A stretch of 64,000 bases of DNA from a virus. Both the position numbers and the translations under genes were made by a program. The stretch spans positions 1 through 64,000 of the IMG/VR virus record IMGVR_UViG_3300036884_000163. One strand, written 5' to 3'. Below, piece by piece: positions 1 to 6,997 of this stretch. The notes under the pieces were generated by a model that worked only from the letters and a program-made list of their open reading frames with translations, was not told the DNA's origin and searched no databases. Position 1 is the stretch's first letter. Every line of letters begins with the position of its first letter.

Positions 1-639
<639 letters not shown>

Positions 640-720
640 CCTCACCCAGAAAGGTGAATGCAGAGCGCCAGAGCAAAGTGAGCGGCGGAGACTAACCCGC
701 CGCAACTTAAAGGAGAAGCC

Positions 721-960
721 ATGAGCGCAGACATAACTACGTACCTTGAGCGCGTAAAAACCAAGTGTGAGGCTACAGACTTCGAGGCGGCACAACTGGT
801 AGCCCAGGTAGCCCTGCGAATTCTCGTCCAAACGCGAGTTGAGTTATGCGCGAATGCCGAAGACGTGGGCGGCGAAGAGCTGCGAGCCTTTATTTTCAAC
901 GATAACAGTGGGATGTGGGCCAAGGCCGAGGCCGCACTGGAAGCGATGGATGCCGCATGA
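721..960 (+). CDS. Hypothetical protein, 79 aa
   Basis: It starts at ATG behind a strong ribosome site (aaaggagaagcc) and ends in an ATGA overlap with the next gene. The product is small, acidic and predicted helical (segments YLERVKTKCEA and AEAALEAMDAA). I do not recognise the family. It opens the run of coupled small early genes that follows the pentapeptide gene. Confidence 0.75.
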   Translation: MSADITTYLERVKTKCEATDFEAAQLVAQVALRILVQTRVELCANAEDVGGEELRAFIFNDNSGMWAKAEAALEAMDAA

Positions 961-1286
961 GCGCCACAAAGGCAGCACAGCCAAGACCGCGGATGACGAT
1001 ACGTGAGCATTTTGAGGATTTGGCGGGAGAGGCTTACGGCGGAGACATCAGCCATCTTCTCGGTCGTGATCCAGCGTATCCCGAATGGTATAAAGCTGCC
1101 GATCTTCAAGCGGCTTGGAGAGTTTTTGAGGCCGGCATAACTGATTTGCGCAACTCTAACCGGGAACTGCTCGAAGCGCTGGAGGGCCTGACTACTTATT
1201 TCGATGGTAAGAACTCATGGGATAGGCCAAGGCCAAAATTCATGATGATGGCGCGGGCCGCTATTGCGAAAGCGAGGAAGCCATGA
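957..1286 (+). CDS. Hypothetical protein, 109 aa, ELLEAL family copy 1
   Basis: The start is set by ATGA overlap with the upstream gene. The N-terminus MSATKAAQ and the C-terminal module (ELLEALEGL ... ARAAIAKARKP) recur in the genes at 1596 and 1793, so the three are paralogous at their ends. The middle (IREHFEDLAGEAYGG, AAWRVFEAG) is unique to this copy. The ELLEAL...AIAKA helix is a common tail of unknown function on small phage proteins. It probably belongs to the same transcript as its neighbours; function unknown. Confidence 0.75.
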   Translation: MSATKAAQPRPRMTIREHFEDLAGEAYGGDISHLLGRDPAYPEWYKAADLQAAWRVFEAGITDLRNSNRELLEALEGLTTYFDGKNSWDRPRPKFMMMARAAIAKARKP

Positions 1287-1528
1287 CGGACCAAGAGATT
1301 TGTTGCAGTGGATGCGGATTCCCAGCGAAAGCCGAAGAGCTAGATGCGGATGGCCGATGCGGATGCACTCCCCCAATGAAAGACATGAGGTGGGCGGTTC
1401 CTCTTGGTGATCTAGGGATTGAATTTCATGGCCCAAAGCATTGCTTTCGTCACGGAGTTCAATTGGACGAAAAACACGAATGTGCGCTGTGTGTTGCCGA
1501 AGACGAGAAGAAGGCAAGCGGCGGGTAA
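1283..1528 (+). CDS. Small Cys-rich protein, putative zinc ribbon, 81 aa
   Basis: ATGA overlap with the previous gene. The cysteines are arranged as CCSGCGFP, CGC, CFRHG and CALC, which would suit one or two zinc sites. No named family is recognised. It is followed by 67 bases without a gene before the next start. Confidence 0.7.
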   Translation: MTDQEICCSGCGFPAKAEELDADGRCGCTPPMKDMRWAVPLGDLGIEFHGPKHCFRHGVQLDEKHECALCVAEDEKKASGG

Positions 1529-1595
1529 CCACGGAAGTCCCGCCGCAGCTTTTGCCGAAAGTCACGCCAATCAGCCCGGGATCGAAGGAGCAGCC

Positions 1596-1796
1596 ATGAG
1601 CACCACAAAGGCAGCACAGCCAAGCGCGCAGAAATTTGAGCAACAGTGCATTTATCCACTCGGCCATGAGCGGGAACTTCTCGAAGCGCTGAAGAAAATT
1701 AAACGGATCATGGCTGCGGGCCAACTTGAAGAGCGTGATATTCAATGCGTCTATTCCGTAGCCGCGGCCGCTATTGCGAAAGAGAGGAAGCCATGA
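1596..1796 (+). CDS. Hypothetical protein, 66 aa, ELLEAL family copy 2
   Basis: ATG behind aaggagcagcc. The first 29 nt match those at 957 with a single mismatch, and the last roughly 30 nt closely match the end of the gene at 1286. It is therefore a copy of that gene with the middle replaced or removed. The protein is essentially the ELLEALKKI...AAIAKERKP module with a short leader. Function unknown. Confidence 0.72.
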   Translation: MSTTKAAQPSAQKFEQQCIYPLGHERELLEALKKIKRIMAAGQLEERDIQCVYSVAAAAIAKERKP

Positions 1797-5101: not shown

Positions 5102-5682
5102 TCAGAAATTGTCTCAAGTGCGAAAAAGAGTTCACGCCGCGCCCAAGGAGAAATGCGCCCATATCTTTCGGCCTGTACTGCTCACGCCCTTGCCACTATG
5201 CCCATAAGCGATCACTGCCTCCAAAGGATTATCGCGAGAACTTCTGGGCAAAGGTCGATAAGAATGGACCACTGTGGAACGGGACACCGTGTTGGCTATG
5301 GATAGCCGCGAAAGATAAAGCGGGCTATGGCCGATTTGGCTTGCCCCGCGTTGGAAATGTCCCGGCTTATTGGGTTGCGTGGGAACTTCTGCGCGGAGAA
5401 ATCAATAAAACTCTCCAGTTCGATCATCTATGTCGGAATCGGCCATGTATCAACCCAGATCACCTAGAACCGGTGGCCCAGAAAATCAATTTGCTTCGAG
5501 GCGAGGGCTTTGCCGCAATCAACGCGAAGAAAACACACTGCATTCGCGGCCATGAGTTCACGCCAGAAAATACTCAGATGTTGAACGGATGGCGAGAATG
5601 TGCACGCTGCCGAATCATTCGCGCGTTGGCTCGAAAGCTCTGCCAAAAAGCAGACTTCGGTGAAATGCTGGCGGTCGCATGA
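5098..5682 (+). CDS. HNH homing-type endonuclease, 194 aa
   Basis: An N-terminal zinc-ribbon-like segment (CLKCEKEF ... CSRPCHYAH) precedes the HNH_3 core FDHLCRNRPCINPDHLEPV near residues 108-126. A second Cys/His part follows (THCIRGHEFTPEN ... ECARCRI). Such genes are free-standing phage homing endonucleases that cut DNA at or near their insertion site. It is coupled to its neighbour by ATGA at 5098 and is one of several HNH genes in the window. Confidence 0.85.
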   Translation: MIRNCLKCEKEFTPRPRRNAPISFGLYCSRPCHYAHKRSLPPKDYRENFWAKVDKNGPLWNGTPCWLWIAAKDKAGYGRFGLPRVGNVPAYWVAWELLRGEINKTLQFDHLCRNRPCINPDHLEPVAQKINLLRGEGFAAINAKKTHCIRGHEFTPENTQMLNGWRECARCRIIRALARKLCQKADFGEMLAVA

Positions 5683-5729
5683 TGCACCGAATCTGGCGCT
5701 CGCTCGTGTACGGGAGGCTGAAGCCGTGA
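5679..5729 (+). CDS. Bridging micro-ORF, 16 aa
   Basis: ATGA with the HNH stop at 5679 and GTGA with the methyltransferase start at 5726 enclose a 17-codon frame (MMHRIWRSLVYGRLKP). The ribosome site of the methyltransferase (gggagg) lies inside it. It may act only to carry ribosomes into the methyltransferase gene, or it may be the remains of a deleted gene. A functional peptide cannot be claimed. Confidence 0.4.
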   Translation: MMHRIWRSLVYGRLKP

Positions 5730-6997
5730 CGACAGGCTCCCTCTTCACCGGCATTGCCGGCTTTGATGAAGGTTTGCGCCGCGCCGGTTTCACGACGCTA
5801 TGGATGGCTGAGAAAGAGCCGTTCTGTCGCGCCGTGTTGCGCACCCACTTTCCAGGAGTTCAGATATTCAATGACGTTGCCGACATTACCCGAGATTCAG
5901 CCGAAGCAGTTGACGTTCTTACCGCTGGATTCCCCTGCCAAGACCTCAGTGTGGCCGGAAAGCGAGCGGGATTGGAAGGCTCTCGAAGCGGCTTGTTCTG
6001 GGAAGTTGTCCGAATCCTGGGAGAGCTTAGGCCACCTTGGTTTGTTCTCGAAAACGTGCCCGGCCTCTTTTCTTCGGGTGAAGGACGCGACTTCGCCATC
6101 GTGCTCAACGCCTTGGATGAACTCGGGTATGGTCTGGCGTGGCGTGTGCTTGACTCGCAGTTCTTCGGAGTCGCCCAGAGACGCCGCCGTGTGTTCATTG
6201 TCGGATGTTTTGGAAAGCCATGTCCCGAAGAGATTCTTTTTGAGTCCGAGGGCGGCGCAGGGGATATTGCGGAGGGCCGAGAACCGGGGACGGATGTTGC
6301 CGGATCGCTTGCATCAGGCCCTCATGTATCTGGCTTCAATGGACAAGACGCCTACACAAACCACATTGTCGCCGGACCTTTGCAGTCAGGATTCAGTGAG
6401 CGCGGACACGGACGAGCCGGAGTCAACCAGCAAGCCGTCGAACAAGGACATATCGTCGCCCACACTCTCAGCGCAGCCAACGGGATTAAGCAATGTGGCG
6501 GACGGAGACGAGAGGACGACTTCAACCTTGCCGTTTGCAACGCACTTGGAGCAGCGCAGGGCGGACCAGACGACAACTCAGCGCAGGGCGGACCCATCGT
6601 CATCCAAGACGTGCGCGGCGGAACGCGAGATAAGACCGACAGCGGGCAAGGAATTGGAATCCGGGAAGGCGGACCAAGTTACACCCTCAGCGTCACCGAG
6701 CAGCACGCCGTCGCGTTCGAGTCTCGATTCGTGCGCAATGGACGCGGAGCACCTGACACAATCGTCCCCCCACTCAAAGCCGAATCAGGGCAAACCGGGA
6801 AGGGCGACGGATGCCCACTTGTCGCCGGTGATGTCGGTACGCCGTCTGACTCCAACGGAATGCGAGACTCTGCAGAATTTTCCAAAGGGATGGACAGTGC
6901 CCGCTATCGAGCACTGGGGAACGCGGTCACGGTCTCGGTTGCCGAGTGGATCGGCCGACGAATCATTGAAGCGGAAAGGTGCGAGGTGACCGCATGA
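5726..6997 (+). CDS. C5-cytosine DNA methyltransferase, 423 aa
   Basis: It methylates cytosine C5 in phage DNA using S-adenosylmethionine. Motif I (SLFTGIAGFDEGLRRAGF), the catalytic PCQ at residues 70-72, ENV at 109-111, QRRRR at 151-155 and the final motif X (RYRALGNAV) are all present. A long Gly-rich target-recognition region lies between. Motif IX (VRRLTPTECE...LQNFPKGW) is not in this frame: it is encoded about 55 codons from the end in the frame one base over, so two compensating indels are implied. The GTG at 5726 follows gggagg. The gene almost fully overlaps a second reading frame (5871-6989). It likely protects phage DNA from host restriction. Confidence 0.85.
   Translation: MTTGSLFTGIAGFDEGLRRAGFTTLWMAEKEPFCRAVLRTHFPGVQIFNDVADITRDSAEAVDVLTAGFPCQDLSVAGKRAGLEGSRSGLFWEVVRILGELRPPWFVLENVPGLFSSGEGRDFAIVLNALDELGYGLAWRVLDSQFFGVAQRRRRVFIVGCFGKPCPEEILFESEGGAGDIAEGREPGTDVAGSLASGPHVSGFNGQDAYTNHIVAGPLQSGFSERGHGRAGVNQQAVEQGHIVAHTLSAANGIKQCGGRRREDDFNLAVCNALGAAQGGPDDNSAQGGPIVIQDVRGGTRDKTDSGQGIGIREGGPSYTLSVTEQHAVAFESRFVRNGRGAPDTIVPPLKAESGQTGKGDGCPLVAGDVGTPSDSNGMRDSAEFSKGMDSARYRALGNAVTVSVAEWIGRRIIEAERCEVTA
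5871..6989 (+). CDS. Overprinted phage protein inside the methyltransferase, up to 372 aa
   Basis: A second frame is open for 372 codons across the methyltransferase. It has the features of an independent phage family, not of random sequence: LTFLPLDSPAKTS, a W/S-rich middle ending NSGMVWRG, then VCSLSDVLE and FFLSPRAAQGILRRAENRG. I recognise the last pair of motifs from stand-alone phage proteins of unknown function. Near its end the frame also carries methyltransferase motif IX. The start is uncertain (ATG 5871 preferred, 5754 possible) and no strong ribosome site is seen. Confidence 0.5.
   Translation: MTLPTLPEIQPKQLTFLPLDSPAKTSVWPESERDWKALEAACSGKLSESWESLGHLGLFSKTCPASFLRVKDATSPSCSTPWMNSGMVWRGVCLTRSSSESPRDAAVCSLSDVLESHVPKRFFLSPRAAQGILRRAENRGRMLPDRLHQALMYLASMDKTPTQTTLSPDLCSQDSVSADTDEPESTSKPSNKDISSPTLSAQPTGLSNVADGDERTTSTLPFATHLEQRRADQTTTQRRADPSSSKTCAAEREIRPTAGKELESGKADQVTPSASPSSTPSRSSLDSCAMDAEHLTQSSPHSKPNQGKPGRATDAHLSPVMSVRRLTPTECETLQNFPKGWTVPAIEHWGTRSRSRLPSGSADESLKRKGAR

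Follow-up and report, generated by a model that had tools for sequence, protein, structure and literature searches.

The methyltransferase locus and its two open frames

The window, the whole 64,000-nucleotide stretch analysed here, comes from a virus record of 72,949 bases, and the locus lies on its + strand. The ORF at 5600-6997 (frame 1) matched PF00145 (E=1.9e-55) and TIGR00675 (E=9.4e-56) and contains the gene of a C5-cytosine DNA methyltransferase, here called alpha. GTG 5726, with GGGAGG before it, is the likely start of alpha. The catalytic PCQ, ENV, QRRR and motifs I and X of PF00145 were found in order; motif IX, which one-chain members of PF00145 carry in the same chain, was found only in a second reading frame, here called beta.

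The +1 frame was open from 5730 to 6989, and the beta ORF was listed as 5754-6989. ATG 5871 was the first in this frame with a good ribosome-binding site and is also the start given in a preliminary description of this DNA, which had proposed dual coding. An ATG with an SD-like site was present in the beta frame of 38 of 53 related loci, compared with 1/53 in the alpha frame and 8/53 in the +2 frame. The features of the locus are as follows.

5712..5717, + strand: GGGAGG, likely ribosome-binding site of alpha (from the sequence; 8 nt upstream of GTG 5726)
5726..6997, + strand: alpha, C5-cytosine DNA methyltransferase with motifs I-VIII, motif X and the variable region, without motif IX (PF00145, TIGR00675, motif map, HMM coverage)
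5741..5764, + strand: alpha motif I, LFTGIAGF, SAM binding
5854..5858, + strand: AGGAG, likely ribosome-binding site of beta (from the sequence)
5871..6989, + strand: beta, putative nested +1-frame subunit of 372 aa (ATG 5871, stop 6987-6989)
5924..5941, + strand: alpha motif IV, AGFPCQ, catalytic Cys (motif map; the +1 reading of GFPCQDLS is DSPAKTS of beta)
5928-5948, + strand: DSPAKTS of beta, the +1 reading of alpha motif IV
6050..6061, + strand: alpha motif VI, ENVP (motif map)
6120..6143, + strand: NSGMVWRG, conserved segment of beta
6176..6196, + strand: alpha motif VIII, QRRRRVF (motif map)
6189-6215, + strand: VCSLSDVLE of beta
6189..6330, + strand: VCSLSDVLE-VPKRFFLSPRAAQGILRRAENRGRMLPDRLHQAL of beta, predicted helical hairpin, the most conserved part of beta outside motif IX
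6237-6281, + strand: FLSPRAAQGILRRAE of beta
6330..6830, + strand: variable (target-recognition) region of alpha; in beta, a low-complexity linker
6840..6893, + strand: motif IX, RRLTPTECETLQNFPKGWT, in the beta frame only (motif map, TIGR00675, HMM)
6902..6928, + strand: alpha motif X, RYRALGNAV (motif map)

RusA-like and ATPase-like ORFs were located downstream of the locus and an HNH-like ORF upstream. Judged by these neighbours, which were named by eye, the methyltransferase probably lies in a phage recombination region. No restriction enzyme gene was noticed among the neighbouring ORFs viewed by eye. When the window alpha was used as a query against viral contigs, no match was found.

Selection on the second frame

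The proposed dual coding was confirmed: both frames were open over the described span, and DSPAKTS, VCSLSDVLE and FLSPRAAQGILRRAE were all present. The third frame was closed, with a longest stretch of 51 codons. Shuffling the beta codons left the alpha frame open as long in 0/5000 shuffles, and synonymous shuffling of the alpha codons left the +1 frame open as long in 9/5000, so that the overlap exceeded chance. The latter figure, together with the fact that GC-rich genes can give rise to long +1 ORFs, would fit a second frame that is a by-product of alpha codon usage and protein conservation and no gene at all.

Four-fold divergence of alpha was compared in 419 pairs of dual-coded genes with alpha identity of 45-75%; the pairs share ancestry, and their numbers are descriptive. 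In these non-independent pairs, the divergence was 0.62 before beta and 0.67 after it, 0.45 in the N-terminal part of beta, 0.39 around NSGM, 0.26 in LSDVLE-RRAE, 0.31 in the linker, and 0.07 in motif IX. Identity across motif IX in the same non-independent pairs was 0.78 in the beta frame and 0.51 in alpha, and substitutions there were more frequent at alpha position 1, the wobble position of beta (.44), than at position 3 (.18).

The window itself was examined by permuting the synonymous codons of its three nearest relatives (L005, L009 and L010), 1000 times each, and comparing the beta-frame alignment scores. The window beta-frame score was above 1000/1000 permutations for each relative (z 6.3 to 8.4), and the signal was situated in 6080-6330 and 6830-6910. 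The segment 5871-6080 alone gave no significant result against L005, L009 and L010; the true start of beta could be downstream of 5871, because these first 70 codons did no better than chance against the nearest relatives. The synonymous-site check suggested in the preliminary description thus came out in favour of constraint on the second frame among relatives, and beta is under selection.

In eight bacterial genomes used as a control, the overlap of canonical one-chain C5 methyltransferases with a +1 ORF was only 44-88 codons, compared with 188-325 codons, with motif IX inside, for the nested C5 methyltransferases of the same genomes. Because the canonical enzymes show so short an overlap, the second frame is not a by-product of coding the C5 fold. 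That reading is extremely unlikely, since two segments were better conserved in the beta frame than in alpha and varied at the wobble positions of beta, the frame was missing in canonical enzymes, and motif IX was present nowhere else. An open frame by chance was likewise ruled out by the constraint tests and the one-chain controls.

Distribution of the methyltransferase motifs over two reading frames

The preliminary description did not contain the feature that beta holds motif IX and alpha lacks it. On an HMM of motif-IX-complete relatives (378 positions), alpha covered 12-213 and 346-375, and beta covered 226-336; alpha and beta complemented each other similarly in L005, L011, and L033. By this coverage, alpha and beta together span one normal C5 enzyme. 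TIGR00675 matched beta at 277-303 only, which is the part with motif IX. More than 80 relatives were retrieved from IMG/VR with beta sequences as queries, and 67 of them were parsed. Among these 67, motif IX was in alpha in 0 and in the +1 frame in 65, while motif X was in alpha in 65 and in the +1 frame in 0; the median open length was 257 codons for the +1 frame and 29 codons for the +2 frame. A sequencing error or a broken gene was ruled out, because dozens of independent contigs show this split as well.

Structure prediction for alpha alone gave the HhaI/HaeIII catalytic core (E 1e-13) and the motif X helix, with residues 171-389 unfolded. Predicted beta had a mean pLDDT of 54.7 and was confident only around motif IX and in the helical hairpin (residues 126-159, pLDDT 88-95); its comparison with solved structures gave no fold match and no homology. 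The models are compatible with two chains folding together and are no proof of it.

Taken by its motifs, the product of the locus is very probably a C5-cytosine DNA methyltransferase built from two chains in the manner of M.EcoHK31I, beta being the subunit with motif IX. For initiation, docking, activity and role, the following is proposed. Alpha would bind SAM and end with motif X, and would carry both the catalytic cysteine of PCQ and the variable region for target recognition. Translation of beta would begin within the alpha gene, from a separate ATG and ribosome-binding site in the +1 frame, and beta would contribute motif IX, the motif that organises the small domain for DNA recognition in one-chain enzymes. 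The beta hairpin (SDVLE...FLS...GILRRA...LPxxL) may dock on alpha, and the two chains, both translated on the same mRNA and in the same place, could assemble into one active enzyme. The enzyme would modify phage DNA, probably against host restriction.

The same motif order could also be read as a single chain made by programmed ribosomal frameshifting, with motifs I-VIII read in frame 1, IX in frame 2 and X again in frame 1. The combined reading would give a standard C5 enzyme, and even motif I is in the beta frame in L005, L009 and L010, so that frame changes recur along the gene. However, two opposite shifts would be required, and no common slippery site was seen by eye at the frame switch in these three relatives. 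The beta frame was also constrained upstream of motif IX, over motifs IV-VIII, where it would be untranslated in a frameshift product, and in most relatives it contained an ATG preceded by an SD. Frameshifting was therefore considered very unlikely.

The two-chain layout has known counterparts. In M.EcoHK31I, the beta gene lies entirely inside the alpha gene in another frame and encodes 176 aa; M.EaeI is another two-polypeptide C5-methyltransferase. The window beta (5871-6989) is likewise nested in alpha (5726-6997) in a different frame, but is longer, with 372 aa and a long low-complexity linker. The alpha chain of M.EcoHK31I (YGGCCR) has motifs I-VIII, motif X and the recognition region, and motif IX is only on the smaller second chain (PMC3404938). 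The window alpha has motifs I-VIII and X without IX, and motif IX is on a second open and constrained frame, whose polypeptide is predicted; the likeness drawn here is one of motif partition. Unlike M.EcoHK31I, the window pair is carried by a phage, and no adjoining restriction enzyme gene was noticed. M.AquI is also a C5 enzyme in two chains, cut between motifs VIII and IX, with IX and X on the small chain (PMC3404938). The window shares the split over two chains with M.AquI but differs in its partition, as motif X is in alpha.

Nested frames in related enzymes

A second class of enzymes had a nested frame without motif IX. Alpha carried motif IX in 67 of 74 parsed MM1-like enzymes (streptococcal phages) and in 55/55 parsed P1 dmt-like ones, and a shorter, constrained +1 ORF with the same LSDILE/YFLS core was located inside alpha of both. 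Four-fold divergence inside and outside the nested ORF was.10 to.29 vs.52 to.56 in the MM1-like enzymes and.01 to.09 vs.14 to.24 in the P1-like ones. In the latter, it was 0.01-0.05 over codons 140-260 and climbed just past the nested stop at codon 263. The P1 feature is as follows.

AF234172 66710-67201 (L101:2282-2773): nested +1 ORF in phage P1 dmt, unannotated; the synonymous constraint in alpha ends at the ORF stop

The MM1 ORF was already named beta subunit in GenBank DQ113772 (Streptococcus phage MM1 1998; orf13/orf14, beta = phrog_16143). It lies nested in the +1 frame and shares the NSGM/LSDILE/YFLS segments with the window beta, which matched phrog_16143 with E=7e-14. MM1 differs in that its alpha retains motif IX and its beta is short (141 aa) and without motif IX.

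This class bears on the possibility that beta is an independent protein with another function, such as a regulator or anti-restriction factor, whose nesting is fortuitous and whose motif IX was gained secondarily. In favour of this, the +1 frame of MM1-like and P1-like enzymes is under strong constraint although it has no motif IX, which is present in their alpha. Against this, alpha lacks motif IX in the window and in 65/67 relatives, and in their beta the motif hardly varies; this links beta to catalysis in these enzymes. A wholly separate job was considered quite improbable, and a motif-IX subunit is still preferred. To judge from these comparisons, beta must have a role besides the supply of motif IX, because the nested frame is constrained also in motif-IX-complete enzymes.

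The preliminary description held that the second frame resembled a phage family existing elsewhere as a separate gene; that family was taken to be DSPAKTS ... FSETWPRSGM ... NPxWVEWLMGFPxGWT. It corresponds to phrog_1008 ('DNA methyltransferase', FSETWPRSGM family), which shares with the window beta the DSPAKTS..SGM.. N-terminal part, a C-terminal motif IX (VEWLMGFPxGWT) and the nested +1 position, but lacks the YFLS-GILRRA hairpin segment and has another variant of motif IX. The family was sampled by two independent DNA patterns, FSETWPRSGM in IMG/VR and VEWLMGFP in bacterial genomes. Among the IMG/VR matches listed, the PCQ motif was upstream in the same relative frame in 60/62 FSETWPRSGM loci; of the remaining two, L167 was nested on inspection and L131 was cut. 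Among the bacterial matches listed for VEWLMGFP, 69/80 loci were nested and 6 were cut by contig ends; the others were L272 (nested on inspection), L228 and L274 (fusion variants, with motif IX in the frame of alpha in L274), and L275 and L284 (fragments).

No stand-alone beta gene was found among the loci inspected (tblastn in phages and plasmids, and the two DNA patterns). The claim of a separate gene is thus unsupported, as the familiar phage family is itself nested +1 in a methyltransferase. Refutation of dual coding had been made in advance to depend on two findings together: the lack of homologues outside overlapping positions, which holds in this sample, and the lack of constraint, which clearly does not. 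The suggested birth of beta by overprinting of methyltransferase DNA gained support, because alpha has the fold common to all C5 methyltransferases, and no other origin of beta is visible; the beta family was probably born in this way and, in the matches listed, seems never to have escaped the overlap.

A literature search on nested phage methyltransferase genes found no paper among those covered. The nested layout is known in principle from the bacterial M.EcoHK31I; unexpected are its breadth, since it was common in phages and bacteria in this sample, and a shorter nested frame, also under constraint, in enzymes whose alpha has motif IX, phage P1 dmt among them. It seems rather probable from these sequences that the nested +1 subunit is widespread, though overlooked, in a large group of C5 methyltransferases from phages and bacteria. 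The subunit would exist both with motif IX (alpha without it) and without motif IX inside complete enzymes, including the P1 dmt ORF, and motifs would have moved between the overlapping frames in evolution (IX in most, I in L005/L009/L010, X in L228). Long same-strand overlaps with both frames conserved are rarely proven in prokaryotes, and the evidence for dual coding is unusually clean here, since the second frame holds an essential motif. The nested gene is often missing from annotation (phage P1 and most records viewed here), and many listed phage methyltransferases may therefore be inactive if cloned alone.

Several loci showed other arrangements. In L005:2026, L009:1508 and L010:2513, motif I (GSLFxGIGGF) was in the beta frame, continuous with beta, and alpha started near motif IV; motifs I and IX would share one chain, and IV-VIII and X the other. 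The window, unlike these three relatives, has motif I in alpha. In the bacterial L228 (about 400-1600, reverse strand), alpha stopped after motif VIII, and IX and X were on beta, as in M.AquI but overlapping. In L149, the nested beta frame contained a LAGLIDADG-like insertion (VAGLIDGEGCIYLAV) around 2000-2800, through which alpha was open too. An intein-like insertion (CFTAGTLVLCEDG...VHNC) was located at motif IV of the methyltransferase ORF in L006 (1602-3530), whose main frame also had VPQRFYLSARACSGILRRA, a beta-type segment, after motif VIII.
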